Assembly (NCBI GenBank): GCA_001275005.1
Contig: JWZX01003272.1
Coordinates: 1-33,042 of the forward strand
Direction: 5' to 3'
Source of the DNA: Chrysochromulina tobinii
Taxonomy: Eukaryota; Haptophyta; Prymnesiales; Chrysochromulinaceae
DNA: 33,042 nt
Shown here piece after piece: positions 2,823-30,929 of the stretch; positions within the stretch are counted from its first letter, which is position 1, and every line of letters starts with the position of its first letter. A model generated the notes under the pieces. It had not been told where the DNA came from, made no database searches, and saw only the letters and a program-made list of their open reading frames with translations. Both the position numbers and the translations under genes were made by a program.

Positions 2823-4988
2823 ATGCGGCTACCGTCGTGTGTGGCGATCCTTCTCTTTCTCGTCGCCATTTTGTGGCAATGGGCGCTGACAAGCTTCCCA
2901 CACGATTGGATGGCATCGGCGCAGTACCTTGACGATCTCGTCAAGGGTTTCCTCGACCCAGACCATCCCTTGCACCGGAATCGCGGCGTGGCCGGCCCTA
3001 GGGGTGGACGAGGGGACGGCACGGTCACGGGCGCCGTTTTCACGCCGGGCGTGGTCGCGGCCGACGGCAGCAGAGGCGGTGCGCCTGTGAGCGAGGTGTT
3101 CGCGGCCAGCTGGTCGGGCCTCACGAATACTCTCGAGATGGCTCTTGAGGCAGAGGAGTGGGATGAGGCATACAATGTGTGGCAGCTGATGGCGGCTGAG
3201 CACCAGGCGCAGATCAGCAATGCCAACGCGCGCTCTGCGCCGGCCGCCTCGCCCTCGGTCGTTGCGGCGCAGCAGCTCGCGAAGCTACGCGACCTCCTCC
3301 AACGACAAGGCGCGACTGAGCGAGAAGCGCTCACCACGGCGCTCTTCGCGGTCCACGCCGCGAGCACGTTCGGCACGGGCGCGCATGCATCGATCTCTGA
3401 GACGGGCGCGGCGGAGTTGATCCGGCAGGTGATGGTGCGCTTCCCTCGCCTCGTCTCGGAGGGCGAAGCGGCGCTCTGGCGGCTGTGGAAGCGAAGCGGC
3501 CAGCGAGAGCTCGACGCTCAGGTAACGTCTGATTGCTCTCTCTGATGGGATCCGAGTGTGACGAATCTCCGGTGACGAATCTCCGGTGACGAATCTCCGG
3601 TGACGAATCTCCGGTGACGAATCTCCGGTGACGAATCTCCGGTGACGAATCTCCGGTGACGAATCTCGGTGTGTAGCTACGGAAGGTCGAGAGGCTGGTT
3701 GAGTTGGAACAGCCCGTAGACGCGCACGCACTGCTCGATCAGGTGCTTGCCTTTGATGAGCGGAGTGCCCTCTGATTGCATCCCTCATCAGGTGCTTGCA
3801 CAGGCGCCCAATTGGGCCGAAGCATGCAATCAGCGCGCGACCCTCTGATTGCATCCCTCATCAGGTGCTTGCACAGGCGCCCAATTGGGCCGAAGCATGG
3901 AATCAGCGCGCGACCCTTCGTTACCTACAGAGGCGTCACCTCGACGCGCTCGACGATGTGGAACGAACGCTCGCGCTCAACCCGATCCATTTTGGGGCGC
4001 TCAGGTGATTGCATTTGATGGCCACTGATGGCCACTGATGGCCACTGATGGCCACTGATGGCCACTGATGGCCACTGATGGCCACTGATGGCCCTTGATG
4101 GCCACTGATGGCCACTGATGGCCCTTGATGGCCACTGATGGCCACTGATGGCCCTTGATGAGCTCACACTCTCGCGCTCCACCCGATCCATTTTGGGGTG
4201 CTCAGGTGATTGAATTTGATGGCCACTGATGGCCACTGATGGCCCTTGATGAGCTCACTCTCGCGCTCCATCTGATCCATTTTGGGGTGCTCAGCGGTGC
4301 GGCGCTCGTGCACACTGCCATTTGGCGCGAGACTCCGGGGCCGCTGGATGCGGGGAGCGAGGGACTTGAGCTAGCGAGGCGCCGTCTTGAGCGCGTCGTG
4401 GAGCTCTATCCGGGCAGGTGAGTGTGCCTCTCTGAGTGCCTCTCTGCGTGCCTCTCTGCATGCCTCTCTGCGTGCGCCTCTCTGCGTGCCTCTCTAATTG
4501 CCTCTCTGCATGCCTCTCTGCATGCCTCTCTGCATGCCTCTCTGCGTGCGCCTCTCTGCGTGCCTCTCTAATTGCCTCTCTGCGTGCCTCTCTGCGTGCC
4601 TTTCTGCGTACCTCTCTGAGTGCCTCTCTGAGTGCCTCTCTGCATGCCTCTCTGCATGCCTCTCTGAGTGCCGCTTGAGTGCCTCCCTGAGTGCCTCCCT
4701 GAGTGCCGCTTGAGTGCCTCTCTGCGTGCCTCTCTGAGTGCGCCTCTCTGAGTGCCTCTCTAATTGCATCTCTGAGTGCCGCTTGAGTGCCTCTACAGCG
4801 CGTCGTGTTGAGCGCCCCCCAGCAGCGAGAGCGCTCACTTCAACTAAAGCGCGTCGTGTTGAGCGCCCCCCCTCAGCAGCGAGAGCGCTCACTTCAACCT
4901 CGAGCAGCTCGAGAAGATGCAGGCGATGGTGCGTGACCAGCACGCGAGTAGCGCCAAACGGTCCAAGGCAGCGATGATGAGCGCTTGA
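2823..4988 (+). CDS. TPR-repeat protein with N-terminal signal/anchor, five exons
   Basis: Exons by frame and splice signals: 2823-3521, 3677-3742, 3865-4004, 4295-4417, 4877-4988, giving about 379 residues. The start MRLPSCVAILLFLVAILWQW looks like a signal peptide or membrane anchor. The spliced middle and C-terminal parts form tetratricopeptide helices (LLDQVLAQAPNWAEAWNQRA, then RATLRYLQRRHLDALDDVER and TLALNPIHFGALSGAALVH), the pattern of bacterial-type and organellar TPR proteins with an NP.HFGAL signature. The last exon adds ESAHFNLEQLEKMQ. TPRs bind proteins; the partner and role here are unknown. The unspliced frame hits stops at once in every intron, so splicing is required. Three of the four introns carry duplicated pieces of the adjoining exons. 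The family call is good; exact acceptors are less certain because of the duplicates. Confidence 0.75.
3557..3670 (+). repeat. 14-bp tandem array in intron 1 of the TPR gene
   Basis: About eight near-perfect copies of GTGACGAATCTCCG filling most of the intron 3522-3676. This is the only intronic array here that does not use the YTGAKKGC core. Confidence 0.9.
3743..3914 (+). repeat. 73-bp tandem duplication covering intron 2 and the start of exon 3
   Basis: Two units with period 73 (3768-3840 and 3841-3913) contain the 3' module CTGATTGCATCCCTCATCAG followed by the first part of exon 3 (GTGCTTGCACAGGCGCCCAA). The intron itself begins GTGCTTGC at 3743, a third partial copy. The upstream exon copy reads into TGA and has Cys for Trp (GCATGC for GCATGG), so the downstream copy at 3865 is taken as the real exon. 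Confidence 0.85.
4005..4294 (+). repeat. Intron 3: CTGATGGCCA array plus repeated exon-3 ends
   Basis: A 10-bp array of GATGGCCACT (about 4018-4158, with some GATGGCCCTT variants; shorter at 4217-4250). Three copies of the exon-3 end (around GATCCATTTTGGGGCGCTCAG) lie at about 3970-4004, 4171-4205 and 4260-4294. The AG of the last copy is the acceptor (TGCTCAG|CGGTGC). The splice restores FGAL-SGAALVH. Confidence 0.85.
4418..4876 (+). repeat. Intron 4: CTCTCTG-rich 10-bp array and 53-bp duplication
   Basis: Some 35 degenerate units of TGCCTCTCTG with TGAGTGCC variants (4425-4790) are followed by two copies of a unit of about 53 nt (from about 4798 and 4851), each holding GCGCGTCGTGTTGAGCGCCC and the start of exon 5 (GCGAGAGCGCTCACTTCAAC). 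The second copy continues into the real exon at 4877; the first is followed by TAA. Confidence 0.85.
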
Positions 4989-5563
4989 TGCACGCCAGTG
5001 CATGCATTCGTGACCAGCACGCGATAGCGCCAAGAACAGTCCCGACGAAGGCAGCGATGATGCCGAGCGAAGTTGAGGTCGCATATCCCTGGTGAGCGTC
5101 GTGTCGCTGCCGGGCACAACACGACGATTCGTCCGGTGTGTGAATACAAATGAAGCCCACGAACGCCCGCTGTGTCGAAACCCGTGACACGCTCCACCCG
5201 GTATGCCTATTGACGATACTAATTAAAAAGCATGCCTGACATTGTACATGTAATTGCAAATCATTATAATAAGCGCAAATTCCTGGAGATTTCAATCTGA
5301 ACCCTGCTGTTTGTGGACTCTCGTTTTTTCGCCGAAGAAGCAGAATCCTTCGCCTGATTCGCAAAGGAGCGAGTATGAAGTGGCCTTCCCGACTCACAGG
5401 CGGCAACTCCGAGCGCCGGCTCGCCTTGCCTGCCCTGCGCGCCCCTGGGGGTCATCGGCGTTGCTGACTCGACGCGGGTGCTGCGCTTCACGTCGCAGGT
5501 CTCAACACAAGTGTCCGTTCCCCGTCTCCCCCATCGCGCTCCCCCAGCGCTCCCCCGAGCAGT
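4989..5563. other. Intergenic: TPR gene 3' flank and receptor promoter
   Basis: No convincing gene. Positions about 5010-5062 repeat, with indels, the end of the TPR gene (about 4931-4980; CGTGACCAGCACGCGA, then AAGGCAGCGATGATG), a decayed tandem copy of the last exon. The stretch 5210-5290 is AT-rich for this locus and may be promoter sequence for the 5564 gene. Confidence 0.45.
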
Positions 5564-8500
5564 ATGCTTCAATCTTCGTGGCGCCGCTCCGCGCCTCGAC
5601 TTGCGCACGCCATCTTCTTCGCCCTGATGGTGAGCGCCACCGATGCGCAGTGCACGGAGACGTGCAACTACGCCTCCGATGGATACTGCAACGATGGCGG
5701 CCCAGGCGCGGTGTTTGCTGATTGCACGATTGGCACCGACTGCGCTGACTGCGGCCCTCGAGGGGCGTCGCCGTCGGGGACGAGCTGGTCGATTGTTTCG
5801 GGTGGATCGTATTGCGAGGTCACATCCAATGGGTTGTGCATCACCGATGGCAGCGAATCGTATAACGACAACGAGGCATGCACGATGCGAGCGGAAGTGA
5901 CAATGAATATCACCGCCATCGAGTTCAACACCGAGAGCTGCTGCGATTATCTCACGATTGGGGGCAACACATTCTCCGGCACCCAAGGGCCAACGAATGT
6001 GCAAGTGACCGCCGGAACAACTGTGACCTGGTACAGCGACAGCTCGGTCACGGGTCCAGGCTTTGTGATCTGTATGCTCATACCACCACCAGCACGACCA
6101 CCAGCACCACCGTCGCCACCAGCACCGCCGATGCCACCGCCAGCACCGCCAGCATCGCCGCCGCCACCGCCATCAGCGCCGCCGCCGGGATCACCACCGT
6201 ATCCACCGGCACCACCGCCTTCACAACCGAGCCTCTGCTCGAATAATTATGGCAGCGGGTCGGAAGGCTGTTGGTACATCAACGACGGCCACTGCGACGA
6301 TGGCGGGCCAGGGGCTGAATTCGGCGACTGCGACTTGGGCACAGACTGCTACGATTGTGGGATCCGCCTCTTGGAGTCCCCTCCGTCGCCCACATATCCA
6401 CCGCTCTCGCCGTTGCCAGGCGGAGCGCTCATCATGGGAGGCGTGCCCGTCGTGCGCGTCGCCTTCTCCTTCCCCCCGCGGAATGTGACTCAGGAGGAAG
6501 TGGTCGAGTTCACGCGTACGGTGGTCGACGTTGCGCTCTGCACAACCCACCCAGTACGCTGCCAAGTATCTCGTGAGCTGACATCAACCAGCCCTGGATT
6601 CGTAGACAATCTAGGTCGGGAGTTTTCACAAGTGCTCGCGAGCACTATGACCTTTCGGCTCGCATTCCCCGAGTCCAACTTTAACGGCTCCGCTGGCTCG
6701 GTCGCCCCCGCCGCAGCGGGAGCGGCGCGCGCCAATGCGGTGCGCACGCTCTTCGCGTCTACGCCACTCACCGCGCCGGCGTATTCGGCAGACCGCAGCA
6801 TCACTTTCGCCCTTTTGCTTGCCGGTGACGTCGCCGCGTTCACTGAGAGCGTGAATGGCGAGATTGCCGCCGCGATCGCGACCGCGGCGAGTATGAACGT
6901 GTCTGCCTGCACCGAGACGTGCGAGTGGGCCTCCGATGGCGATTGCGACGACGGCGGTCTGGGCACGGAGTACTCATCCTGCGCCATCGGCACCGACTGC
7001 ACCGACTGCGGCATGCGCCAGCAAGTGGTTCTGAATGTTACGTCGTGCAGCGTCGTGACCTGTGGCACGGCCACCGGCGTCATCGTTGCCGTGCGTATCC
7101 GGACGCCCACAGAGACGGCAACCACGGTGCAGTCGAGGATCACCAGCGCCATTAGCAGCCCGAGCCTCGCAACCCTCATGCTCGCCAACGTCACCGGCGT
7201 ACGCCGTGCCCGACGTCTCTCGGCTACCGTGATCGCGGTCCTGGCAGCACCGACCGTGATAGGCGGGAACTCCTTGCTCGGCGCATTCGGCGTCACCAGC
7301 CGACCCGACGCAACAATCACCTCCGCAGCTTTGCCGTACTACAAGCCACCCTCGCCCCCGCCTGCGCCTCCGCCTCCCGCAGCGCCACCGGGCCTGTGCT
7401 CGAACACGTGCGACGCCTCTGGCGTAGGGGGCACCCCGGGTGTGTGCAATGACGGCGCCTCCCCTGACCCGTTTCCTTTTAGGCAGCTCTGCCCGTTCGG
7501 CAGCGACTGCACTGACTGCGGCTCACGTGACTTTTGTCTCACCTGCTCGCTCGAGTGTCAGAGGCGCAACAATGCGCTGACCGAAACGAAGCGCGGCGAT
7601 GGGTGCATGGCCTCCATGTATGGTGACACAATCTGCGACCCCAATTGCAACAACCGCGAGTGTGGCTACGACGCCGGCGCATGCACACTGAGCCAGATCC
7701 GGTCCGTGTGCATGGCCGAGCAGGATCTTGGTCGCACGGACTACAGTACGAAGCCGCAGGCGCTCGGGACCCTCGTTGGTGTGAGTGATGGCTCCTTCCG
7801 GCTACTCCTGCAAGAAAATAACTCGCATACCTCGAGCGCCTCAATGCTCGCCATGGGCCGCGTGCCGGTCGCGATCTCGCTCAACCTCTCGCCCATCCGC
7901 CTGGTGCTGCAGCAAGACTTCAACGAAAACTACATCTTCGCCGAGATGAGGTACACGCTGCAGTGGGCCGACCCACGCCTCGCTCGCTCACCGTGTGCGG
8001 GCGCACTTTCGGGGATGCTCTCGCTCGACTTTGAGCAGGGCCTGAGCGACATCGCGCGCGAGGCGGCGCGCGCGATGCGCTCCAAGTTTTGGGTGCCCTC
8101 GTTAATGCAGGTATTCGCCGTCCCTGGCTACCGTGGCATCGATGCATCCGCCGATTTCCATCTAGGTACGGAGACGATTCTTATAGATGGTGCGCCAGGA
8201 TCGAGAGATGAAGGGCTAAGGGTCCCTATGCCAGTGCAGCCTTGGCTCGAAGGCTATGGGAGCAGCCTGCCGGCGCCCGCACCATCAGCAACGCTCTCGG
8301 GCGTCCTCCCGATCGCCAACCAGTTCACGTTGGGGCCACGCAACACGTCGGCATGTGTCGGTTGCGCCTCCTGGACGGGCGACATCGAGTTCCAGCTGCT
8401 CCAGTCGCACCACGTCTTCTTCTTCTATCCCTTTGACCAGCAGGAACTCACTGTGACCATAGAAGTGGCTGGGGCCTGGCTGTACGGCTGCGTGGGCACG

Positions 8501-16989: not shown

Positions 16990-19133
16990 TCACCTCCGCC
17001 CGAGCTCCGCCACAAAATCGCCGAGGGCGCTCTCGACGCGCTGCTTGAGGTGCGCGAGCTCGGCCTGCACCGCCGGTCGCGCCGCCGACGACGGCGCGAC
17101 TGTCCGCTGCTCGCCTAGCTCATACGTAACGGCCGCTGCCGGTAGGCCGGATTTGGAAGGTCCGGTTGGGCAGATCTCGCTGTACAGCAGCTTGCCACGG
17201 GCCGCCGTCGTGGGCACCTCCCCCCCGGCTCCGGCGTCGTCCTGGGCACCCCAGCGCCACTCGATCTCGCACTTGAGCTCGAACGGCCGTTTCACCCTGC
17301 CGCGCATGCTGATGATCGACGCGTGCCCCTCGAGCGCCGCGACATTGCTCACCGAGATATTGGCCAAGCTCAGCCCCTCGAGCCGCCTCTGCACGTCGGC
17401 GAGGGCCCACGCGCTCACGTCGCGCTCCTCCCACGTGCCCGCGCTGTTCCAAGCACTGGCCGCGCTCGTTGGCGCAGTCGTGGGCGCCACCATGGGCACC
17501 GTCGGCATGGGCGCCGTCGTGGGCGTCGGCTTGGGCGCCGTCATGGGCGCCATCTCGAGCTTCTTGGGCGCCTTTTGGGCATCGAGGAGCGCTTTGGTTG
17601 CGGTGTCCACCTGTGGGAAGACGGGATGGCGCCGTGGTGAGCACTTGCATGCAATCAGACTCCACCTCCGATGGTTGCGGCGTTCACACCTGGTCGGTGC
17701 GGGCGAAGTACGATGTCTTGCTTCCGTCGGCGCGGACCTGATGAGGGAGGCAATCAGAGAGGCGATCAGAGGCGATCGGAGGCGATCAGAGGCCATCAGA
17801 GGCCTTCAATAGCCATCCGACCACAGATGTGCTACCTTGTACCCCCTGCAATCAGGGATACTCAGGGACACTCTGTGGCACTCAATGGCACTCTGTGGCA
17901 CTGGGTGACACTCTGTGGTACTCTGTGGTACTCTGTGGAGCGTACCTTGTACCCTCTGCTGAAGCCCTCGAGCAAAGCTGCCTCGTCCTCGTCCTCCACC
18001 TCCAGCTTCGTCACCGCCGACTGCGATGCTCGACGCGCCTCCTCTTGCTGGCGCGCCTGATGAGGGACGCAATCAGTCGCAATCAGTCGCAATCAGTCGC
18101 AATCAGTCGCAATCAGTCGCAATCAGTCGCAATCAGTCGCAATCAGTCGCAATTAGCCGAAGCTCCTCTCGCTGTCGCGCACCTCCTCAGCCTTTCGCAG
18201 GTCCTCGTCCGCCTTTCGCTTGGCCTCGCGCTCCTCTTGGCGCGCTCTCTCCTTCGTTGCAGCCTTGAGCTTCGCCTGATGAGGGAGGCCATCAGAGGCC
18301 ATCAGAGGCCATCCCAGGCCATCCGAGGCATGCGTGGCACACTCAGTGGCACACTCAGCGCCACTCACCTGCCCGAACTCCTCAAGTGTGAGTGGTGCAA
18401 GCTTATCAAGGGCCGCTCGCGCCTCCGCGTCCCCCGACGCCGCCGCGGACGCAAGTAGATCGATCGCGGGGTTCGGCGGCCCGCGTTGGCGTAGTGCGTC
18501 GCACTCCTGGCGCCACTCGTGCAGCAGCGCCGCCTCCTGCTTCGCGAGCGCCTGGGCCTTCGCCGCCTTCTCTCGCGCCTCGATCGCCGCTTCCTCTTTC
18601 GCGAGCCCTTCGAAAGCTTTGCCCATCATCGCACGTTCAGACGAGGCTTGCTCCTTGAGCTTGGCGAGCACGAGCTCGAGCGCGGCGCGCGCCTCCCGAT
18701 TTTTCGGGTCCGCCTTGATCACGGCGGTCAGGTCGGCCTTGGCCTCGGCCAGCCTGCCCACGTGGGAGCACGCGACACCCCGTCGAAGCCGGGCCTTGAC
18801 GAGGGAGGGATCGAGGTCCACGGCGGCGGACGCGGCGCGCAGGGCGCTCTCCCACTGCTGCGCTTTGACGTGACACGCGGCCAGGTTGTTGTGGCACGCG
18901 GCCAGCAGTGGCGACGCCGTGTCCGTCTCGCCCGGGTTGCTCTTCCACCACACGCGGAGGGCCGTCTTGGCCGCGTCGGATGTCAGCTTGGCGACGGCCT
19001 GCTCGTACGCCGCAGTGGCCGCGGCAAGGTCACCCGCGGTGAAATTTTCGTTGCCGAGCGCCTTGAGCTCGTTGGCCTTCGCGATCAGGCTGGCGACGCC
19101 ATCGCCGGGCGCCGACTCGTCGTCGGAATCCAT
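16990..19133 (-). CDS. TPR-Aha1 fusion co-chaperone, five exons
   Basis: Minus-strand exons 19133-18369, 18275-18183, 18056-17946, 17737-17690 and 17610-16990 give about 545 residues. The start MDSDDESAPGDG is chosen as the first Met before the TPR block. Exon 1 carries three TPRs (KALGNENFTAGDLAAATAAY; CHNNLAACHVKAQQWESALR; ARLRRGVACSHVGRLAEAKA) of the STI1/FKBP/TTC4 type that bind Hsp90/Hsp70 C-termini. A charged coiled coil follows (QEEREAKRKADEDLRKAEE). Exons 3-4 join as GFSRGYK-VRADGSKTSYFAR. Exon 5 includes SAWNSAGTWEERDVSAWA and RGRVKRPFELKCEIEWRW, the pattern of the Aha1 N-terminal domain that stimulates the Hsp90 ATPase. The likely role is a cytosolic Hsp90 regulator joining docking and activation in one chain. 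Domain calls are good and exon limits are supported by phase. Confidence 0.8.
17611..17689 (-). other. Intron 4 of the TPR-Aha1 gene with a dispersed 28-mer
   Basis: GTGTGA donor, CTTCCCACAG acceptor. It contains at 17627-17654 the reverse complement of the intergenic 28-mer at 2350-2377. Confidence 0.65.
17738..17945 (-). repeat. Intron 3 of the TPR-Aha1 gene with duplicated donor
   Basis: The exon-3 end GGGTACAAG|GTA recurs about 100 nt into the intron as CAGGGGGTACAAGGTA. Short CACAGAGTGCCACTGAGTGCC-like units lie between. The sense 3' end is CTGATTGCCTCCCTCATCAG. An internal 10-nt micro-exon is conceivable but would break the frame. Confidence 0.7.
18057..18182 (-). repeat. Intron 2 of the TPR-Aha1 gene: CTGATTGCGA array
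   Basis: About nine 10-bp units, GCAATCAGTC on the plus strand and GACTGATTGC in the sense of the gene, ending in CTGATTGCGTCCCTCATCAG. The donor is GTGCGC. Confidence 0.85.
18276..18368 (-). other. Intron 1 of the TPR-Aha1 gene, 93 nt and stop-free
   Basis: GTGAGT donor and CTGATGGCCTCCCTCATCAG 3' end, phase 0. Its length is a multiple of three and it has no stop in the host frame, so retention would insert 31 residues. It is called an intron because of its perfect splice signals and the shared module. Confidence 0.6.
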
Positions 19134-19329: not shown

Positions 19330-21405
19330 TCAACACCAGGGATTCCCTTTGTGGGGATGGCACGGCACGTCGGCGAGCGAGGCTACGCCTGGTAGCTTGA
19401 GCAGGTCCATTTCGGTGCGTGCGTCACAACAAGTCTCATGAACCTGCGTGCAAGGTCATCCAAGCTCATCAGATCTCATTAGAGGTCATCAGAGGTCATC
19501 AAGTATGGGGTCTGACACACCTTGGTAAACAGCGGACGCGTGTCCGTCGGGTGTTGCGCACGGCGCACGTTGATGATGTGGCCGGACAGAGTAGAGGGCA
19601 GCGAGCCTACGAAACCGCCGGGCGCCTCGGCGCACACGATCTACGTCCAGATGGCGAGGGCAATCAGCGCCGAACAATCATTCATGCCCATTCACAGCCC
19701 ATTCACAGCCCATTCATGGCCCCATCCACGGATGGCACTCAACGGCGAACAACAGCACTCAATGGCACTCAATGGCAATCCAATGGCACTCAGCGCACCT
19801 GCTCGAGGATGGCGAGCACGTCAGCCCAGAGCTTCTGTGGAAAGGCGGAGAGCGCGAGCACGAGCGGAGGTTGCGCGAGATCGTCGACGAACACCAGCTT
19901 GTACCCGCCCAGCTGCGCGAGCGGCTTGAACCAGCTGCGTCCGAACTCGTGCGAACTCGTCATCAGTCGTCATCAGTCGTCATCAGTGGTCATCAGTGGT
20001 CATCAGTGGTCATCAGTGGTCATCAGTGGTCATCAGTCGTCCGAACTCGTGCGTGGCGACGAAGACAATCAATTGCAATCAATTGCAATCAATTGCAATC
20101 AATTGCAATCAATTGCAATCAATGGCAATCAATGGCAATCAATTGCATCCGTTTCAATCAGCGCACCTGCGTTCGAGCTCGTCCGTGGCGACGAAGACCG
20201 TGGCGCCGTTGACGAACCCCTCGTCCTTCGCCAGCTGTCCGAAGAATTCGGTCGTCATCTTGCCGCCGAAGACGGCCGCGTAGCTGATGAGGGAGGCAAT
20301 CAGTGGTCATCAGGGGTCATCAGGGGTCATCAGTCGTCATCTTGCCGCCGAAGATTGCATGTACGCACGCCTTGTCGACAACGGCCTTGTCGCCACGGCG
20401 CACGTGCATCGCCGCGTACGAAGGGCCAAGAGGTGCCGCCGCCTCGCGCGCCGCACGCACGAGTGTCGGGTGGTACCTGATGAGGGAGGCAATCAGCATG
20501 CAATCAGTCTCTCGCGCCGCATGCATGAGTGTCGGGTGGTACTTGATGAGAGACTGATTGCAAGCGGATTGCATGCTGTGAGAGAGAAGGCGCCGTATAG
20601 ACGGCAATCAGAGGCAATCAGAGGCCCACCAGAGGCCCATCAGAGGGCCATCAGAGGCCCATCAGAGGCCCATGAGCGAAGGCCAGAGGGGAGACTAGTT
20701 ATGGATTCAGCGTACGCTATCAGCTTGTACATCTCGAGCGCGATCTCCTCGGGCAACGGCCACGTCCAATAAAGGCAACAGGTGACCCGGAGCAGACCGA
20801 CGTCGCTGCCCGCGTGGTCGCGCACCCAGACCTCGCGCGACCAGCGAGGCATGCCGCGCCTCCGATGAGGCTGCCCTTCGCCCGAGAGCGTCACCGTCGA
20901 CCGATCGGCCGCAGCGAGCGCGGGTGCGAGCAGCCCATCGACGCTGCCATGCTCATCCTCGCAGAGGACGCGCACGCCGAGCCGGGCGAGGGTGCTCAGG
21001 TCGAGCAGCCTCGCCACGCTCACGCGCGCGTCGCCCCGACGCCGTACCCACGCAAACGGCGGCACGATCAGCGTCCTGTTGAGCAGCCGCGCCATGTCCA
21101 AGGCGCAGAGCAAGTTGAGGATCTGATTATTCCACCCCGTTGTCGGTGACGTACGTGAAGAAGCGCTCGGAGCTCGCGTCGACGATGCTCAGGGAGCCGT
21201 CCGCGCGCACGACCGCCGGCATCCCCGTGGAGGGCGCGAACTGGCCCGCACGGCCCGACGTGACTTTGTCGATGAAGTCCGTGTTCATCGTATGCGCAAA
21301 GGTAGAGAGCGGCGTGCCCAGCGGCTCGTCGCACTCAGCCTCAGCATCTGCCGCCACTCCAGTGCTTAGGAGCAGCAGACAGATCAGTTGCATGAGGGTT
21401 CGCAC
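19330..21405 (-). CDS. GDP-fucose O-fucosyltransferase-like glycosyltransferase, six exons, one frameshift
   Basis: Minus-strand exons 21405-20716, 20476-20369, 20283-20167, 19934-19799, 19640-19521 and 19443-19330. The N-terminus (MRTLMQLICLLLLSTGVAADA) is a signal peptide, so the enzyme should enter the secretory pathway. Family motifs in order: WNNQILNLLCALDMARLLNR (donor-binding loop region), YAAMHVRRGDKA (the H.RRGD arginine motif of FUT8/NodZ/POFUT-type enzymes), VFVATDE, and near the end CAEAPGGFVGSLPSTLSGHI. In exon 1 the frame changes within a C-run at 21135-21138 (sense GGGG), just between TYVTDNG and WNNQ. One base fewer would restore the frame, so this is an assembly error or a recent lesion. 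Introns i1, i2 and i3 carry copies of neighbouring exon sequence. The fold is confident; acceptor and sugar are not determinable. Confidence 0.78.
19935..20166 (-). repeat. Intron 3 of the fucosyltransferase-like gene: exon copies and two 10-bp arrays
   Basis: Arrays (plus strand) are GTCATCAGTG-type at about 19961-20038 and CAATCAATTG-type at about 20068-20150. Copies of the exon-3 end lie in the exon (20167-20198), in the intron (20039-20067), and at the acceptor (19935-19961). Sense CTCGAACGCAG|GTGCGC is the donor and TTCGGACGCAG|CTGG the acceptor. Confidence 0.85.
20284..20368 (-). repeat. Intron 2 of the fucosyltransferase-like gene: intron 5' part copies exon 3
   Basis: A 22-nt stretch inside the intron (20333-20354) is identical to exon-3 sequence at 20251-20272 (sense core TTCGGCGGCAAGATGACGAC). 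Donor GTGCGT, 3' end CTGATTGCCTCCCTCATCAG. Confidence 0.85.
20477..20715 (-). repeat. Intron 1 of the fucosyltransferase-like gene: copy of the exon-2 start
   Basis: The first ~33 nt of exon 2 (sense TACCACCCGACACTCGTGCG) recur inside the intron at about 20511-20546 with substitutions (CTCATGCATGCG). In that copy the preceding acceptor has decayed from CATCAG|GTAC to CATCAAGTAC. GAGGCCCATC/GAGGCAATCA-type 10-bp units occupy about 20600-20680. Confidence 0.8.
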
Positions 21406-23072: not shown

Positions 23073-25402
23073 TCAGTCGCCTGTGCGTACGCAATCAGAC
23101 GCAATCAGACGCAATCAGACGCAATCAGACGCAATCAGACGCAATCAGACGCAATCAGACGCAATCAGACGCGTCGCACGCAGATGGTTGACAGATGGTC
23201 CACGGATCGGCAGCATCACCTGGCCGTAGATCCACCGGCCGAGGCAATCAGCCTGCAATCAGCCTGCAATCAGCCTGCAATCAGCCTGCAATCAGCCTGC
23301 AATCAGCCTGCAATCAGCATCACCTGGCCGTAGATCCACCGGCCGAGGCAATCAGCCTGCAATCAGCCTGCAATCAGCCTGCAATCAGCGTGCAATCAGC
23401 ATCACCTGGCCGTAGATCCACCGGCCGAAGTAGCTCGCGTCGCCGTGCCTGCCCAGCACAGGGCGCGATAGAATGTCAAAAGCACTCAGGTGCACTCAGG
23501 TGCACTCAAAGAGCCAACAGTGCTATCCACAGTGCTCACCTGTTCACAAAGAGCGCGGTCAACTTAAACTTGTGATGACCAGATGACGTGGCGTTGAGGA
23601 CCGTAAGGCGCACGCCGCAGCGCCGCCGGGTGCTCTCACGCAACGCCTCTGCCGTTGGAGGCTGCTGTTGGATCCGCACGGAAAAGTAGACGAGATCGAG
23701 AGGCGAGACGCGCTCGAGATTGTGCGCGTCGATCACGAGCGGCTCGCATGCACACTGGTGCATGCAATCGACACGGACGGAGCCCATGTGCTCATAGCTC
23801 TTCAGGTAGCCAATCCCGACTCGGTTAGCCACGCTCGTCGTGTCGCCGAGAGCGTACGAGAAGGTGCACTGCGCGTGGCATGCGCAGTCCAACCAGACGC
23901 ACTCAGACGCACTCAGACGCACTCAGACGCACTCAGACGCACTCAGACGCACTCAGACGCACTCAGACGCACTCAGACGCACTCAGACGCACTCAGACGC
24001 ACTCAGATGCCAATAAAGACAATCAAAAGCCATCCGAGCTCATCAGGGCTCATTAAGGCTCATCAGAGCCACTCATTGCGGCCACGTGCACCTGCGCGCC
24101 CACGACGGCGCTCAACCAGCCGGGTTTTGGCACGCCGGAAGGCGAACGCTCGACGGCGTACGCCCAGCCGATACAACCCTCACGCTCGACCAAGGCATGC
24201 AACGAGTCCGCATCATGGCACTCCAGCCGGCGAGCCTCCGCGCCGGCGACGTTGGGTAGCATGGGCTGCGGCGGCAGCGTCCGAATGCCGCCGGGCCGTG
24301 CACACGTGGCCAGGGCGTCTGTGGAATTGGCATCGCCTAATTTGGCATTGAGGGGCTTCACCGAGCGCCCCGCCGCGAAACGCACGGCGTCGTCGTGGGC
24401 GAGGGCAATCAGAGCTGAGGGTGACATCGAGGGCGACGACGTGGGCGTGGGCACCACGGGTTCGTCATGGGCGGCATGCATCGGAGCTCCGGTGAGCTCG
24501 AGCATCAGGAGCGCCGTCTTGAGCAGATGGACGAGGCCGTGAGCAAGGATCGCATGCCCATAATTGGAAGGGTGGATCCGGTCGTAATAGAGCTCATGCA
24601 GGCGCAGCCCGCCAAACGTACGGTTGGCCTTCATCGCGTGCCAGATGACGTTACGCAGCGAGATTGAGGGCAGATCGTAATACCTCGCGAGCATCTCGAG
24701 CGAGTCTTCATTCGCAGTGTGGCCCCATTGCTTGTGATAGCTGAACGCGAGGTCGGACGCGTGCGCGAGCGGCGCGGCGGGCACCGTGCGCCCGCGCTGC
24801 CCCTCATTCGGCCAGCGCGCGTACCAAGATTTGGGCGTCTCCATCGTCCAAAACGGGAATGCATGCACGAAGACGACGGCGGGTGCCGACGGAAAGCCGA
24901 GCACTTGGCGCAGCATGCGTTCGACCGACTCACGGCCCAGCTCGCACGGATCCGGCTGCCCGGACGAGGCGCCCTCGCGCCGAGCACGCCCGCACATGTT
25001 CGCCGAGGCTTCGAGGAGAACGAGGTCGACGGTCGGAGGTACGTGAAGCGAGAGGCACTGCTCCATGTAGCCTGGCGGCACGGCGGGCGTGGCGGCGTTA
25101 ATGTGGCCGACGTGGCCGGGGAAGCGCGACTGCAGCCACCGCTGCAGCTTGCGGTGGTAGAGGCCGCTCTGATCCGGGCGTACGCGCGACGACGACCCCG
25201 CCGACACGGAGCCGCCCAGCACCGCGATGCTCACATTGTTGCCCGCCCGCAGCTTGGCGGCGAAGCAGCGTAGGCGGTTGAGGCCGCCCTCGTGCGAGAC
25301 GGCGCGTCGCAAGTGTGCGAGATTTAATACGCCCGCAGGAAGGTCGTCTCCAAGCAAAGGAAGCGACGCGAGCTCGCGAAAGAGAGCGCTAGCGACATCC
25401 AT
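23073..25402 (-). CDS. SGNH/GDSL-like esterase or acyltransferase with extra C-terminal domain, multi-exon
   Basis: Exons (minus): 25402-24092, 23901-23540, 23448-23406, 23219-23180, and a short uncertain last piece near 23080-23073. The start at 25402 (AAAGAAATGG context) gives MDVASALFRELASLPLLGDD; the frame stays open 39 codons further up. The first exon has the SGNH layout: SIAVLGGSVSAG (block I with nucleophile Ser), a block III-like LLEASAN, and DRIHPSNYGHAILAHG (catalytic Asp/His of block V). These proteins hydrolyse or transfer acyl groups, often on polysaccharides. Exon 2 adds a Cys-rich segment (WLDCACHAQC) and a beta-rich part, and exon 3 reads HGDASYFGRWIYGQ across the splice. Which acceptor is used in the repeat-filled introns and where the protein ends are uncertain. 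No clear signal peptide was seen. Confidence 0.7.
23089..23172 (-). repeat. CTGATTGCGT 10-bp array, probable last intron of the SGNH-like gene
   Basis: Eight perfect units (GCAATCAGAC on the plus strand), with a possible donor CTGC|GTGCGACG at 23179 and acceptor TACGCACAG|GCGACTGA at 23081. With that splice the protein ends two codons later. Confidence 0.75.
23220..23405 (-). repeat. Intron 3 of the SGNH-like gene: 11-bp arrays alternating with exon-3 ends
   Basis: Three copies of a block containing the sense exon end GGTGGATCTACGGCCAG and GTGATGCTG (plus coordinates about 23208-23243, 23317-23347 and 23396-23427), separated by CTGATTGCAGG units of 11 nt. The first-transcribed copy provides the donor, the last the acceptor AG followed by in-frame GTGATGCTGCCGATC. 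Confidence 0.85.
23902..24091 (-). repeat. Intron 1 of the SGNH-like gene: CTGAGTGCGT array
   Basis: About eleven perfect 10-bp units (GACGCACTCA on the plus strand, 23896-24006), then CTGATGAGCC-type variants. The donor is GTGCAC at 24091. The array itself supplies several possible AG acceptors. Confidence 0.85.
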
Positions 25403-25627
25403 TTCTTTGATTTTTTCCGTTGAAGTGAATTGTGCATGCAATCCGCTTTGTGTCAGAAACACACGGTGAAACCGCCTTCTCCCTTCCTTCTCCCGCTCCC
25501 ACGCGCCCATTTGTCTCACATCCCACGTCCATCAAGAGTCTTCACAGCCTTGTTCGCCCCCTTCACACCGGGAGTCGTCAGTGGTCGACCGCCGGTTCAC
25601 GCAGCGGCGCGCGTGCGCGTGCGCGCG
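25403..25627. promoter_or_regulatory. Divergent promoter region, SGNH-like and cNMP-binding genes
   Basis: About 225 bp separate the two outward-facing start codons (25402 minus, 25628 plus), so one region probably serves both. No TATA element or other known motif is recognised; it is C-rich on the plus strand. Confidence 0.45.
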
Positions 25628-28600
25628 ATGCATCGCGCCCAGTCCGCGCCCGATCCGAAGTATGTGCGGGAGGTCTCCATCCTGTCCCGCTTCTCCTTTG
25701 GGGGAGATTACCCGAGAGGACGTGCGTCCGGCGGTGCGGCTCGACGACGTTGCCCGGCCTCAGCTCAAGCAATTCGAGCCTTCGGCGGGGTTGCCTGGCA
25801 GCCGGAAGACGCTGAGGAAGAGCAAGAGTTCTGAGACGCTGAGGAAGAGCAAGAATTCTGAGCTGGACCCGCCGCGCACCGCGTCAGTGCACGTGGCACG
25901 GCCGCAGGCAGATCGGCTCAACACCACCGGCTTCCACGACGAGCGCCACCGCGGCCACTCATCCGGGGCGATGCTGCACGTCGAGGCGTTCGAGTTTGAG
26001 GCGCCACCGCAGTCGGCGGCGATGCGGCACGGCATCTCGACTCCGACGCTCGCACCGGCCGCGCTCCGCCACCGCCGGCCCGGCAGCAGGCCCAGTGCCA
26101 TGGCGGGAGCCATGCTGCCATCGCTCTCGTGGCCGGCCGGAGCCGCGCCCGCGGCGGCCACGGGCCTGCTCCTGGGGAAAGGCGCGCTCCCGCCGACGGA
26201 CGCGCAGCAGATGGCGGCACAGCCGGACGCGCGTGACGAGTTACGGTCCGCGCCACGCTCGACGCCCAAATCGAGTCCACGTGGCCTCGATGGACTCGAG
26301 CCTGCCCCTACCGCCAACGCCGCCAACGCCGCCGCCGCCGCCGTCGCCGCCGTCGCCGTCGTCGCAGCAGCAGCAGGATCAGCCGCAGCAGCGGCATTCG
26401 CCGCAGCCGCCACATCAGCCTCGCCGCATCAGCCTCGCCGGCAGGCGCCAGTGCCTAATATGGCAGTGTCCTTAGGATCGCATTCCCCTTCGCCCGTGCC
26501 CTCCTCGTCAGCCTCGCCCATGCCGCTCAAGCGGATGTCGGCCCGGGCGGCAGACGAGCCCGATCGCACGGAATCTCCATCGGTCTCTCCGTCGGTGTCA
26601 CCATCTCGTCGGACCTCGACCGTCGAGATGTCTCCGTCGGTGTCACCATCTCGTCGGACCTCGACCGTCGAGATGGATTCGTTGGGTTCGTCACCATCTC
26701 GTCGGACCTCGACCGTCGAGATGGATTCGTTGGGTTCGTCACCGTCGGCGTGGAAGCGCGCCAAGATCAAGACTGTGCGCACGAGACGGCGCGCTCGAGA
26801 TAGCGCCCCGATGACCTCTAATTGACCTCTGATTGACCTCTGATTGACCTTCAATCGCAGATGCGCCCGAGTCGGCGCTACTCGATCTTCGATCGCATCT
26901 TGCGCCCCGTCAACCGCTGGCAGCGAACGGTAATTACCACCTGATGGTCGCTGATTGCTCCCTGACAGCCACTGGTTGCCACTGATTGTCACTGATGTAT
27001 CATCGACTGTCACTGATTTGTGGCAATCAGTGGCGGTCAGGGCCATGGATCCGTCACTGATTCGTCACTGATTACCGTCATCAGGTCCTTACAACCGCCT
27101 TCCTAACTCGGCTCGCGAATGATTCGTCACTGATTACCGTCATCAGGTCCTTACAACCGCCTTCCTAACTCGGCTCGCGAATGATTCGTCACTGATTACC
27201 GTCATCAGGTCCTTACAACCGCCTTCCTAACTCGGCTCGCGAAACGGATCCATCTGCTCAAGAAGCTTCGCGCCATCTTCGCCACCATCATCGTGCCGCA
27301 TAGGAAGAAGCTTGCCATTTTAAGGCCGCTCAAGATGTTCGCCTCCCTCTCGTACCGCGAAGTCTACGCGCTCGCGGGCATGATGAAGCTCAAGCTACTG
27401 CCTCGGTGCGCACCAGCAGAGTGCCTCTGGTGATCTCTGATGACCTCTGATGACCTCGGAGTGCGTCTGAGTGCGTCTGATTGCCTCACCGATTGCAGGT
27501 ACGCCAAGGCCCTGCGTGCCGGGTGCGCGCCGTCCGCCTTCTACGTCGTAGTCTGGGGCGGTTTGCATTTCATTGGCGGTCGAGAAGATGGGCTGCCTCA
27601 GACCGTAGGTGTGGGCGAGAGCTTCGGTGGCGGGCATCTCGCCTCGCCGCTCAATCTGGGCGACATCAAGGGGGACAGCAAGGGGGACGGCGCCGTAGCG
27701 GGCTCGCACAGAGGGCAACTGTCGGTGTCTCCGGGGCGCGAGGTCATGGGCGGAGGGCAATCTCCGGGGCGCGAGATCGCGTCGAATGACGTACCTCTCG
27801 AGCCATTCGATCTGCAGGCCGCCGAGCCGACCCTGCTGCTCAGCCTGCGAGTGAGTGATGTCGATACGATCCTCCATCCGACTGAGTGCATGCTGATGGC
27901 CTCCCTCATTGCATGCAGGTGAGTGATGTCGATACGATCCTCCATCCGACTGAGTGCATGCTGATGACCTCCCTCATTGCATGCAGGTGAGTGATGTCGA
28001 TACGATCCTCCATCCGACTGAGTGCATGCTGATGGCCTCCCTCATTGCATGCTGATGGCTCCCTCATTGCATGCTGATGGCCTCCCTGATCGCAGGTGAG
28101 TGATGTGGATACAATCCTCCATCCGTGGTTCATTACTCTGCAGAAGCAGTACGTGCCGCCTTGGAGTGCACCGCCTTGAGTGCACCGCCTTGAGTGCGCC
28201 GCCTTGGAGTGCGCCGCCTTGGAGTGCGACCCTAAATGGACTCTCTGATGGCCCCCATCATCAGGTACGTGAGTAGCCAGCTCAAGTTTGATATGCTCAT
28301 CAGGGCGCCTGCCTTCGCGCGTGCGGGCGTTGAGTTGGTCGATCAGCTCGCCTCATGCTTCGTGCTGCACCGAGCGCCTTCAGGAGCGACGCTCTACCAC
28401 GCCGGAGACCGACCAAACGGCGCGTTCTTGCTAATCGAGGGCACGGTCGATCTCTTCGCACCTCCGAGATTGAACCTGAGCGGTCCGAGGAGCTTTGAGG
28501 ACACTCAGCCGAGTCTAGTGATGCGTCGATCTCAGCTGAGCGAGTGCGCGTGGGTTGGCGAAGGTACGTTGATGACCGCTGAATGCCACTGTTTGCGACC

Positions 28601-29461
28601 GATGACCACTGATGAGCTCTGATTGCCCCCCTCATCAGGTGCTCTGTTCCACGGGCGCGAGCCACCGGGCAGCCGTGATGACGGGCCAGGCAAGGGCTAC
28701 CGCCGCTCGCACACTGCCCGGGCCGCCCGTGCGTGCCAGATGCTGCGCCTGCCGCAGGCGTCCTTCGCGCGCTTCGAGCAACTCGCTACGGTCCTGCTGC
28801 CCATGCTGCGCACCCACGACAAGCGGCTCGAAGAGCTCGTGGCCGACCCCCCACCCAAATTTGGGCATGCGACGAAACGGGTCGAGGCGGCGGGGGAGGA
28901 TGCGGGCCTGAAGGAGATGCAGCAGTTCGCGCACGAAGCCGCTCTGGCAGCGCGCGTACGGGAGTTTGATATTGTCCGTTACATTGATTGCCATTGATTG
29001 CCATTGATTGCATGCACCTGAGTGTCCCTAACTAGGGAGTTTGATATTGTCCGTTACATGCACCTGAGTGTCCCTAACCCGATGCGCTCGGAGTGCCACT
29101 GATGGACATGGGTTGCCACTGATGGCCACTGATGGCCACTGATTGCCATGGTTTGCCACTGATGGCCACTGATTGCCATGGTTTGCCACTGATGGCCACT
29201 GATTGCCATGGTTTGCCGCAGGCGGAGGCGCACAGGCGCTTCGAGCAGAGCCAGCACCGCGACTTGAAGGCCACGTTCATCTACAACCTCGCGTCCGCCT
29301 ACGACCGCATCGACCGGTACAAGCGCCTGCAAGAGGGGGAGAAGGCGCCGCGCTCGGCTTCGCTCCAAAAGGGGAGCTCTCCGAGAAAGGCAACTGCCAC
29401 GCCCCAATCCCTCGTCGCTGGCCCGAGCCATGCTGCCCCTACGCCAGCACCTACGGTGTAG
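25628..29461 (+). CDS. Protein with tandem cNMP-binding domains and repeated RRTST sites, about eight exons
   Basis: Exons: 25628-26774, 26861-26929, 27209-27405, 27499-27850, 28096-28148, 28265-28563, 28639-about 28990, 29222-29461. The first exon is Ser/Ala/Pro-rich and disordered, with three SRRTSTVEM copies. Exons 3-5 form one cNMP-binding-like fold (KMFASLSYREVYALAGMMKL, PSAFYVVVWGGLHFIG, VGVGESFGGG); exons 5-7 a second (RAPSGATLYHAGDRPNGAFL then LIEGTVDLF, and VGE|GALFHG, YRRSHTARAARACQMLRL). No transmembrane segment or kinase domain is present, so it resembles a soluble cyclic-nucleotide sensor or PKA-regulatory-like protein. The start is uncertain: ATG 25628 opens MHRAQSAPDPKYVREVSI, but this frame joins the main one only if one G is removed from 25700-25704; the main frame itself starts at ATG 25581. 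The junction of exons 7 and 8 is unresolved. Confidence 0.68.
26580..26745 (+). repeat. 45-bp coding minisatellite encoding RRTST motifs
   Basis: Three in-frame units with core CATCTCGTCGGACCTCGACC (about 26603, 26648, 26693), separated by CTCCGTCGGTGTCAC or ATTCGTTGGGTTCGTCAC spacers. Each encodes SPSRRTSTVEM, an R-R-x-S/T basophilic phosphosite. Confidence 0.85.
26930..27208 (+). repeat. Intron 2 of the cNMP-binding gene: 62-bp unit carrying the exon-3 start
   Basis: Units start at 27061, 27123 and 27185 (period 62). Each has ACTGATTACCGTCATCAG followed by exon-3 sequence GTCCTTACAACCGCCTTCC. Only the last copy runs on in frame (GCGAAACGGATCC); the earlier two end in GCGAATGA. Donor GTAATT. 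Confidence 0.88.
27851..28095 (+). repeat. Intron 4 of the cNMP-binding gene: 68-bp units made of exon 5 plus intron end
   Basis: Copies of the exon-5 start (GTGAGTGATGT.GATAC.ATC) lie at 27851, 27919, 27987 and 28096; the last is the real exon. Units are exactly 68 nt apart for the first three. Because exon 5 itself begins GTGAGT, a perfect 5' splice site, the first copy serves as donor. Confidence 0.88.
28149..28264 (+). other. Intron 5 of the cNMP-binding gene
   Basis: Donor AAGCA|GTACGTGCC, acceptor CATCATCAG|GTACGTGAG; GTACGTG begins both the intron and the next exon. The inside holds four GCCGCCTTGGAGTGC units. The splice gives QKQ-YVSSQLKF in frame. Confidence 0.7.
28956..29221 (+). 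repeat. Unresolved intron between exons 7 and 8 of the cNMP-binding gene
   Basis: GAGTTTGATATTGTCCGTTA occurs at about 28962 and 29038. The first copy differs from the second by an insert of about 29 nt made of TGATTGCCAT units. A 30-bp array (CACTGATTGCCATGGTTTGC) follows at about 29110-29215, ending in the acceptor TTTGCCGCAG before 29222. No GT donor fits the phase cleanly, so a GC donor or a sequence error is possible. Confidence 0.6.
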
Positions 29462-29820
29462 CCATGCTGCGATGAACACACTTCATACACATGTATCTGG
29501 TGGCCTCATGTGGCCATCCTTCTAGATCCGGAGTAGAGGACTGAGGAGAACTTACAGCATTCTTGCTCACCTAGCATTTCACGAGTCTGCAGCAGAAAAT
29601 CATTCGAGATTTGATCCAGTGACCCACACCTCCCCATGCCATGCTCTTCGTTTCCCGTCGGGGTGCGTAGGCATAAGTTTCGATCTTCTTCATTCCTATG
29701 ATTCATTGCGGACTTCGCCGAAAAACGCGCGACGTCCTGCTGGGGAGAGGCGCGACGGGCGTTCGCCGAAGCGAAGCGCAGCGCGCGCCGCGCCGCACGT
29801 GAGGTACCAGCCTGTACGTA
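29462..29820. other. Intergenic gap before the MBD4-like gene
   Basis: 3' flank of the cNMP-binding gene and promoter of the glycosylase-like gene. Nothing repeated or gene-like is evident. Confidence 0.45.
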
Positions 29821-30929
29821 ATGGAGGGCCTGAGCGAATACGAGCAGCAACGGCTGGCTCACATAAGGCGCAACCACGAGATGCTCGTCCGGCTCGGGCT
29901 TGTCGACGCCGACTCAAAGCCGATCTTCTGTGCTTCCGCCAAGGGGAAGATGATTGCCAAGGGGCCGACGAAGCAGCGCACAAAGCTGCCTGCTGTGCCG
30001 CCGGAGAGCCTGCGCCGCTCGAGCCGCAAGCGTGGCGACAACCCCGAGTACGGCCCTGAGGTGGTCGACTCGTATGGTGACGAGGATGAAGAGGTCTCGG
30101 GAAAGAAGCGCAAGCTCGATCCGGAGAGAAATGGGAAACTTGGCGCCAAGGACGACGAGGCTGCGGTGCAAGCCGACATGCTCGAAGCTGCCACCGAATT
30201 CTTGCGTGCGGCGCGCGAGGCGCTCTTGCAGTTTGTCTCCTCGGCGGATGGCGAGGCGCCCGCCACGGCCGAAGGCTGGCACGCCGAGGCCGTGCAGCGC
30301 TGGGGGCCCCAAGTGGGCGGCGAGACTGGGGATGAGCGCGACTGGGAGACCTACGTGTCCTCGCGCCTCTCAAAGCCGCCGCCCACGAGCTCACTCGACC
30401 TGCTCCAAGAGTACTATGCGGCCGACACGTGGCAACTGCTCTGCTGCTGCGTGCTGATGACGCGCTGCTCGTCGTGGGCGACGAAGCACAGGTGCATCTC
30501 CGGCTTCTTCGAGGCGTTTCCCACACCGTCGGCCTTTCTTAGCAAGGTGGTCCTCGCCGGAGAGACGGCCGATCTCAAGCCGATCATTCACTCACTCGGC
30601 CTCTTCGACGACCGGCTCAAGAGCCTCGTCAACGTCACACGGGCCTTCCTCTTTGGCGACGATGCCTTTGAGGTGGGCCTCGAAGGCGAGCACCTGATGG
30701 CCACTGATGGCCTCTGATGACCACTGATTGCCTCCCTCATCAGGTTGGCCTCCAAGGCGAGCACAAGATTAAGGGCGTGGGCGAGTTCGGCTACCACTCG
30801 TGGCTCATCTTCTGCCGTGACGAGGGCGCGACGCTCAAGGCGACGGACGAGACGCTCAAGGGCTTTTGCCGCTGGCGGTCCCGGCATGCGCAGGCCGAAG
30901 AGACATGTAAGAACGCCACGGCTTCGTGA
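29821..30929 (+). CDS. MBD4-like HhH-GPD DNA glycosylase domain protein, two exons
   Basis: Exons 29821-30672 and 30744-30929 give 345 residues. The N-terminal 130 residues are charged, with likely nuclear signals (RRSSRKRGD, GKKRKLDPERN). From about residue 195 the sequence follows the C-terminal glycosylase domain of MBD4: LDLLQEYYAADTWQLLCCCV then LMTRCSSWATKHR, a PSAFLSKV helix, LKPIIHSLGLFDDRLKSLVN, and across the splice FEVGLQGEHKIKGVGEFGYH then SWLIFC. MBD4 excises T or U opposite G in nuclear base-excision repair. No methyl-CpG-binding domain is seen. In MBD4 the catalytic Asp lies in IGKYGNDSYRIFC; the aligned position here is His (VGEFGYHSWLIFC), so activity is doubtful or differs. 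The intron's first 21 nt copy the start of exon 2. Confidence 0.75.
30673..30743 (+). repeat. Intron of the MBD4-like gene with the exon-2 start duplicated
   Basis: A 71-nt intron. Its first 21 nt (30673-30693, GTGGGCCTCGAAGGCGAGCA) match exon 2 (30744-30764) at 19 of 21 positions. It then has CTGATGGCCA/CTGATGACCA units and ends CTGATTGCCTCCCTCATCAG. Confidence 0.9.

Follow-up and report, generated by a model that had tools for sequence, protein, structure and literature searches.

Known routes of intron gain

How new introns originate has long been debated. According to a review from 2012, the proposed mechanisms fail for thousands of novel introns, many of them recent (PMC3443670). Introners are the closest described system, and in the passages of PMC9860276 that concern splice sites the element may bring one splice site, the other coming from the target duplication. 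In Symbiodinium the 3′ site comes with the introner and the 5′ site is recruited from the target; the duplications of earlier introner families are given there as 3-9 bp, and Chrysochromulina introners are described with 4-bp duplications and a carried 5′ site (PMC9860276). Low-complexity families were excluded from a large introner survey, according to the same passages (PMC9860276), so introns of the kind described below may have been overlooked. Other routes use duplication of local sequence. The potato RdRp intron, as outlined in PMC4974935, arose from a duplication over an intron-exon boundary, and an excerpt of PMC11782384 reports direct repeats of 4-30 bp near the splice sites of 213 introns of several classes. 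Among the literature matches listed, none deals with the cassette described here or with minisatellite introners in haptophytes.

Exon copies in the introns of the window

Gene models in the window, which is the whole 33,042-nt stretch of Chrysochromulina tobinii DNA analysed (contig JWZX01003272.1), gave 25 introns in TPR, TPR-Aha1, O-fucosyltransferase (FUT), SGNH, cNMP-binding and MBD4-like genes. Copies of adjoining exon were scored against a null of 494 cross-gene pairings per test, with significance at p<0.01. Such copies were found in 15 of the 25 introns, where about 0.5 would be expected, and the same test gave nothing significant in the other 10. The copied piece is the start of the downstream exon in 11 introns and the end of the upstream exon in five, one intron having both. 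All 12 places where the preliminary description had reported exon copies (TPR 2, 3 and 4; TPR-Aha1 3; FUT 1, 2 and 3; SGNH 3; cNMP 2, 4 and the exon 7-8 gap; MBD4) are among the 15; the exon-copy duplications far exceed chance, and they are tied to intron gain, as it had proposed. Several copies are near-identical, as it had said (SGNH 3, cNMP 2 and TPR 4 match at every position). Copy-bearing introns beyond its list are cNMP 1, TPR-Aha1 2 and TPR-Aha1 4. The 15 introns are given below with the identity of the exon copy.

TPR intron 2, 3743..3864, + strand: 49/50; 73-nt tandem unit; in order, donor-side 8-nt copy GTGCTTGC (by itself scoring 16, below threshold), cassette-like acceptor to 3791, internal exon-start copy, second acceptor to 3864
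TPR intron 3, 4005..4294, + strand: copy of upstream exon end, 35/38; body a TGATGGCCAC minisatellite; acceptor AG, by eye, within the last exon-end copy
TPR intron 4 (acceptor tentative), 4418..4876, + strand: 22/22; GTGCCTCTCTGA minisatellite; downstream exon-start copy at about 4823-4844
TPR-Aha1 intron 2, 18057..18182, - strand: 16/18; donor-side exon-start copy, TGATTGCGAC minisatellite, cassette-like acceptor
TPR-Aha1 intron 3, 17738..17945, - strand: 13/14 (p=0.008); upstream exon end copied internally (growth type); cassette acceptor
TPR-Aha1 intron 4, 17611..17689, - strand: 14/16 (p=0.004); donor-side exon-start copy; without cassette
FUT intron 1, 20477..20715, - strand: 31/34; downstream exon start copied internally after CATCAA, then cassette acceptor
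FUT intron 2, 20284..20368, - strand: 24/25; donor-side exon-start copy, TGATGACCCC units, cassette acceptor
FUT intron 3, 19935..20166, - strand: 26/29; upstream exon-end copies; two minisatellites; acceptor AG, by eye, within the last exon-end copy
SGNH intron 3 (a single intron), 23081..23405, - strand: 23/23; upstream exon end plus donor in three copies in total; CTGATTGCAGG minisatellite
cNMP intron 1, 26775..26860, + strand: 20/24; donor-side exon-start copy, diverged
cNMP intron 2, 26930..27208, + strand: 35/35; tandem repeat of a 62-nt unit (intron end plus exon start), three times at 27058-27243
cNMP intron 4, 27851..28095, + strand: 28/30; donor-side exon-start copy, then tandem array of a 68-nt copy-plus-body unit
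cNMP intron 7 (the exon 7-8 gap; acceptor tentative), 28956..29039, + strand: 24/25, supported also by the reading frames; by eye, an exon tandem duplication whose left copy is interrupted by a TGATTGCCAT minisatellite
MBD4-like intron, 30673..30743, + strand: 19/21 (p<0.01); left exon copy 30673-30693, body 30694-30723, 20-nt cassette with the terminal acceptor 30724-30743; right copy is exon 30744-30764

Seven of the 15 end in CATCAG. By our sorting, six look like growth of an already existing intron. The copied piece is the upstream exon end in SGNH 3 and TPR-Aha1 3, and an acceptor-exon unit in cNMP 2, FUT 1, TPR 4 and most of TPR 2. A significant donor-side copy was found in six introns (MBD4, FUT 2, TPR-Aha1 2, TPR-Aha1 4, cNMP 1 and cNMP 4), which sort as candidate births; adding TPR 2, TPR 3 and FUT 3 makes nine. 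The dozen births suggested previously was therefore an over-count.

The preliminary description had attributed these births to tandem duplication of AGGT-containing exon pieces, in which the two copies supply donor and acceptor; on this reading the minisatellites were added later. AG|GT is indeed present at both junctions of four copy-bearing introns (TPR 2, MBD4, TPR-Aha1 3 and TPR-Aha1 4), and an exon tandem duplication lies within cNMP 7. TPR 3 and FUT 3, in which the copied exon end holds the acceptor AG, come nearest to the proposed model. However, one junction lacks AG|GT in the other 11, and among the cassette cases from the assembly (below) a non-exonic body separates the copies and identical bodies occur at unrelated loci. 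As a general account this model is very unlikely; in their letters the four introns conform to it.

Support for the splice junctions in this analysis is at the protein level. A 243-aa JGI protein (P0057), whose contigs do not exceed 1192 nt, shares 205 of 206 residues with the spliced FUT product and spans junctions 1-4; its own tail runs on across junction 5. Among nine other homologues, the alignment spans junctions 1-4 in eight and junctions 1-3 in one. The FUT frame is broken in exon 1 on this contig, and the search used the sequence downstream of the break. SGNH junctions 1-3 are spanned by five of seven homologues and junctions 1 and 2 by the remaining two. For TPR-Aha1, junction 3 is spanned by all nine homologues and junction 4 is gap-free in six of them. 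MBD4 PDB chains align to residues 186-329 of the MBD4-like protein, a range including the junction at 284, and no Pfam family was found in this protein at E<=0.01.

A shared acceptor cassette and its flanking duplications

Further analysis was directed at one intron type across the 53-Mb assembly. These introns carry an exon copy at their 5′ end, usually starting from GT, and their acceptor is part of a common 20-nt cassette, CTGATTGCCTCCCTCATCAG. The cassette was found exactly 643 times (0 for a reversed control) and 4604 times with at most three mismatches (control 1); a further count gave 1945 against 0 for the backward pattern. The 643 exact cassettes are followed by G in 560 cases, GT in 425 and GTNCG in 142, a donor-like trace. 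In 20 random 10-kb stretches, three were rich in CTGATTGC (12-31 per 10 kb), two had 4-5 and 15 had 0-2; so uneven a density means either a patchy process or a mixed assembly. Viral contigs, a collection that may lack records close to this genome, held no exact match to the 19-nt motif, and in prokaryote genomes four single matches turned up.

A flank was counted as copied when the sequence after the cassette, from its first base, was repeated upstream with a score of at least 24. This was found at 34 of 66 cassette sites and at 0 of 660 controls, and in a held-out set at six of 13 (0 of 156 controls); in both sets the search required at least the 19-nt motif between the copies, and the acceptor lies in the cassette by construction. 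At 23 of the 66 sites no copy reached the score. In the 29 non-array cases the duplicated flank X is 8-50 nt long (median 23), the copies match at 690 of 731 positions, and nine of the 29 pairs are identical. A non-exonic body of at least 32 nt (range 32-190 nt) keeps the copies apart in all 29. X lacks an initial GT in eight of the 29, so the donor is unclear there. AG stands ahead of the left copy in nine of 27 GT-starting non-array cases (five of 21, plus four of six held out), compared with 19 of the 335 GT sites that two genes without introns contain; it is thus favoured, as AGGT duplication would have it, and not required. The expectation that exon copies would exceed controls genome-wide is upheld in this motif-chosen sample. 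It did not extend to random contigs: 200 kb scanned independently of the motif, with minisatellite-word repeats excluded, gave no AG/GT donor-side duplication among 369 repeat pairs and six mirror-type rows, of which two, at L025, are intron-like.

Further evidence comes from units that have travelled. A 42-nt unit carries a piece of exon from contig C858, and a 29-nt part of it has 16 matches on eight contigs (control 0). Six of nine places with this tagged unit, the C858 source included, have their own duplication of 12-36 nt; three do not. An identical 47-nt body occurs at two C214 places with duplications of 26 nt and 32 nt. A second copy of three other bodies was searched for, and only the originals were found. 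Convergent selection favouring strong 3′ splice sites could account for the 20-nt cassette taken alone, but not for the tagged unit or the 47-nt body, which recur with other flanks.

These findings bear on whether any birth took place. The copies could instead reflect old, ordinary introns in which minisatellites and junctions were tandemly duplicated, donor-side copies being [cassette-exon] arrays minus their first unit. The 10 array-internal copies in the 66-site sample and the growth types in the window (for example SGNH 3, cNMP 2 and FUT 1) fit this explanation, but it is made improbable by the tagged unit, which occurs at further loci next to locus-specific duplications, and by the GTNCG behind 142 exact cassettes. 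An introner of the non-autonomous DNA-transposon kind, duplicating its target site at a fixed length, is a still poorer candidate and highly improbable. Its splice-site logic would resemble that of published introners, as far as the passages of PMC9860276 describe them, but the spread of duplication lengths is not that of a fixed duplication, the bodies are unlike one another and their starting points vary.

The reading that we consider probable is introner-like intron gain by insertion, with a long and variable flank duplication. A short 3′ part of an existing intron (CTGAT resembling a branch point, a run of pyrimidines and CATCAG) would be copied into a coding exon, and the insertion would duplicate a flank X of variable length, giving A-X′-[body+cassette]-X-B. 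Where X starts with a donor-like GT, the spliceosome could excise X′ and the body and leave the protein unchanged, the donor being supplied by the duplicated exon and the acceptor by the cassette. There are also mirror cases, with X ending in AG and the GT coming from the body. Slippage would later let 10-11 bp minisatellites grow in the body, and tandem duplication over the junctions would multiply units. CTGAT is the presumed branch point, selection would explain why X starts at GT, and slippage is the putative cause of minisatellite growth. Counting against the insertion reading are the uneven density of CTGATTGC, the outcome of the motif-free scan, the 23 sites without a copy, the eight cases in which X lacks an initial GT, the three tagged places with no duplication of their own and the three bodies without a second copy.

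How the piece is copied divides this explanation. DNA-templated repair at staggered breaks, without an RNA intermediate, is the leading route, at about even odds. A rival route within the insertion explanation, possible though somewhat doubtful, is retro-insertion of excised intron RNA. Reverse transcription at a nicked exon would give an exact 3′ end, frequent 5′ truncation and a variable, LINE-like target-site duplication. Tagged copies begin at varying points and those examined end at ATCAG, the copy at C176 begins exactly at the GT of the unit, and duplications range from 12 to 36 nt, all as this route would have it. A 3′ end at AG would, however, equally be fixed by selection for splicing, and at the targets C1953, C2244 and C1733, 5-8 nt are shared with the exon that follows the source unit, which fits a template extending past the intron. 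GTGCTC is a common start in this setting, which weakens these three matches. A tentative extension is that spliceosomal introns renew themselves in a cycle that needs no transposon. Their 3′ pieces, perhaps in the form of excised RNA, would retro-insert into exons, and every birth would add a copy of host exon and pass this tag to the next generation. If so, exon tags would let intron lineages be traced through the genome.

Comparison with known systems

This alga is a good place to study intron birth. Intron ends of the cassette type number in the thousands in a single assembly, a readable footprint is kept at roughly half of the clean sites sampled (34 of 66), and one tagged unit allows the source to be told from its copies. 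A full catalogue could separate DNA from RNA routes.

As in introners, including the Micromonas elements in the part of PMC3879977 that describes them, intron sequence is repeated at new gene positions (PMC9860276). The cassette recurs at many unrelated positions (4604 against 1) and the tagged unit on eight contigs, the shared length being short, and locus-specific target duplications lie at the intron ends (34 of 66 against 0 of 660; six of nine tagged places). Unlike the 3-9 bp given in PMC9860276 for earlier introners, and expected as a fixed length of DNA-transposon introners, the duplications here are 8-50 nt (median 23). Moreover, broad sharing is limited here to the 20-nt 3′ cassette, and the bodies are minisatellites.

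As with AGGT tandem genomic duplication, in the form outlined in PMC3443670, splice sites are flanked by duplicated exon and coding sequence is preserved. The difference is that AG|GT is provided at both junctions in just four of 15 introns, and that the intron is not built of duplicated exon; a body of 32-190 nt lies between the copies in 29 of 29 cases, of which at least 19 nt was demanded by the search. Double-strand break repair resembles the present cases in form, with filler inserted between direct repeats of variable length, but the filler here is a recurrent intron cassette. The potato RdRp intron, as PMC4974935 outlines it, is similar in that branch site, pyrimidine tract and acceptor come from an existing intron and the donor is recruited from exon. 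The window arrays TPR 2, cNMP 2 and FUT 1 are nearest to it; in contrast to that local tandem duplication (PMC4974935), the copies in this alga are also dispersed.

Exon copies in the window introns

Exon-intron models for six window genes (TPR, TPR-Aha1, O-fucosyltransferase (FUT), SGNH, cNMP-binding and MBD4-like), refined with homologues, gave 25 introns, with tentative acceptors at TPR 4 and cNMP 7 (numbers after gene names denote introns). Named relatives of the encoded proteins include Prymnesium, Chrysochromulina and Emiliania. Each intron was aligned with 50 nt from the start of its downstream exon and, separately, with 50 nt from the end of its upstream exon; exons of other genes served as controls (494 alignments per test, p<0.01). 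Copies of adjoining exon were found in 15 introns (11 downstream-type and 5 upstream-type), including all 12 places named in the preliminary description; the same test found no significant copy in the other 10. Compared position by position, the intron start and the exon start had an identity of 0.51 vs 0.37 at positions 2-5 and 0.40 vs 0.26 at positions 6-9, with no clear excess past position 9, and the excess was weaker on the acceptor side than on the donor side.

Types of window intron, sorted by eye from copy alignments
Donor-side copy (birth type): MBD4, FUT 2, TPR-Aha1 2, TPR-Aha1 4, cNMP 1, cNMP 4
Acceptor-exon array (growth): TPR 2 (also with an 8-nt donor-side match), TPR 4, cNMP 2, FUT 1
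Upstream exon-end copy, one copy carrying the acceptor (mirror type): TPR 3, FUT 3
Upstream exon-end copy, growth: SGNH 3, TPR-Aha1 3
Exon tandem duplication, minisatellite within one copy: cNMP 7

Splicing is supported by protein comparison. The JGI protein P0057 (243 aa, contigs of at most 1192 nt) equals the spliced fucosyltransferase at 205/206 residues over junctions 1-4 and itself runs on through junction 5 (LFTK/VHETCC). It is most simply explained as a transcript, the alternative account being a near-identical intronless genome. Further homologues also span SGNH and FUT junctions. For TPR-Aha1, junction 3 is spanned by 9/9 homologues and junction 4 is gap-free in 6/9; several show gaps at junction 1, and the sequence around junction 2 is variable. 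Intron starts in P0024 and P0076 closely resemble those of the window when compared by eye, so these particular introns are present in related strains as well.

Two other coding features were observed.
21132-21144, minus strand: FUT exon 1 frame broken at a G run; no such break in related proteins P0076, P0077 and P0089
5564-10249: intronless 1562-aa gene adjoining intron-rich genes; an LNR (Notch-type) match exceeds its cut-off, and EF-hand matches fall short of theirs

A common intron 3' end and its duplication footprint

Introns of both strands share a 3' end, the cassette CTGATTGCCTCCCTCATCAG; CATCAG closes 10/25 window introns and 7/15 of those bearing copies. Across the assembly (53.15 Mb in 2253 contigs, the window being C2113) the cassette occurs 643 times exactly, 1945 times with at most 1 mismatch and 4604 times with at most 3; the backward pattern gave 0, 0 and 1. 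The exact cassettes are followed by G in 560 cases, GT in 425 and GTNCG in 142, and conservation 5' of position -20 drops to minisatellite words. Among 20 random 10-kb stretches, 3 were CTGATTGC-rich, 2 intermediate and 15 nearly empty; cassette and minisatellite words cluster in few random contigs (L014, L015, L026). This uneven spread may reflect gene-level patchiness or a mixed assembly.

Other repeat features were noted.
L037 (sampled locus) 601-685: cassette in tandem array, 21-nt spacing, four exact copies
Window 1426-1444: 19-nt motif following the channel-like gene with which the window opens
Window 1785-1798, 1842-1855, 2363-2376, 3330-3343, 9953-9966, 17628-17641 and others: CTCACCACGGCGCC, a further recurring word, with 11 matches (at most 2 mismatches) vs 0.77 expected, lying inside an intron as well as in exonic and intergenic sequence; also in L095, and possibly another repeat family

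The footprint was studied at loci mostly picked by motif, some for motif clusters. Sampled sequence contained 106 distinct 19-nt motif sites, 105 with enough flank; dropping 39 with minisatellite words downstream left 66 sites at 52 loci. An upstream copy of the post-cassette sequence (score >=24) was present at 43/66 sites vs 18/660 permuted pairs, and one beginning at the first post-cassette base at 34/66 vs 0/660. Ten copies were preceded by another CATCAG (arrays). In the 29 non-array cases the duplication measured 8-50 nt (median 23) and the body between copies 32-190 nt; copy identity was 81-100% (pooled 690/731), and GT began the duplication in 21. A further 20 exact-cassette sites, 13 after the same filter, gave upstream copies at 6, all from base 1 (controls 0/156). 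A motif-free scan of the 20 random stretches found 0 donor-side cases in 369 repeat pairs. The excess of exon copies over permuted controls is seen in the motif-chosen sample; the random scan gave no such positive result. Judged by copy identity, the gains may be recent.

Bodies shared between loci

Searching the assembly with 29 nt from the unit GTGCTCCTCACC+CTGATGACCTCTGATTGCCTCCCTCATCAG gave 16 matches on 8 contigs (at most 2 mismatches; control 0), the tag being imperfect in C272 and C1953.

Own flank duplication at the nine tagged places (contigs)
C858: 12 nt
C1757: 16 nt
C176: 18 nt
C373a: 24 nt
C272: 36 nt
C1953: 36 nt
C2244, C1733, C373b: none

C858 is the likely source of the tagged unit, since GTGCTCCTCACC there also begins the exon behind a five-unit array. 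C214 carries one 47-nt body twice, at sites 1.2 kb from each other, one with a 26-nt and the other with a 32-nt duplication; a 36-nt part of this body had no other occurrence in the assembly, and searches with three other bodies found no second copy. Among 131 cassette sites, 147 different-locus pairs had at least 30 nt in common up to the acceptor, many of the 40 longest (those inspected) being minisatellite-like. In an uncontrolled count, joined junctions kept an open frame in 14/17 cases (exceptions C1953, L004 and L097); the unspliced frame in C858 and C272 is likewise open, which makes this a weak test. The tagged unit at several places and the 47-nt body at two point to insertion rather than duplication alone.

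Mechanism and comparison with known intron gain

The common layout is A-X'-body-cassette-X-B, where X is the duplicated exon flank and X' its left copy, X' supplying the donor and the cassette the acceptor (the latter by construction in the sampled set), with CTGAT as putative branch point. An origin of most introns from AGGT-containing exon pieces, as the preliminary description held, does not agree with the junctions: AG/GT stands at both in 4/15 copy-bearing introns (6/25 overall). AG precedes the left copy in 9/27 cassette cases vs 19/335 GT sites in two intronless genes; it is favoured, not required. A transposase is disfavoured because duplication length varies. Two routes fit: staggered breaks may be mended by DNA-templated repair, towards which the analysis leans, or intron RNA may be retro-inserted, which is less favoured. 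Introner-like intron gain in a new form is quite probable, with confidence slightly lowered by the preference for AG before the left copy.

Excerpts of further work on intron gain give context (PMC3443670; PMC3879977; PMC7789003; PMC4974935; PMC11782384). In excerpts of PMC9860276, low-complexity introner families were filtered out of the survey, and introners with 3-9 bp duplications are described, whose splice-site sharing follows the same logic as that of the cassette introns here.
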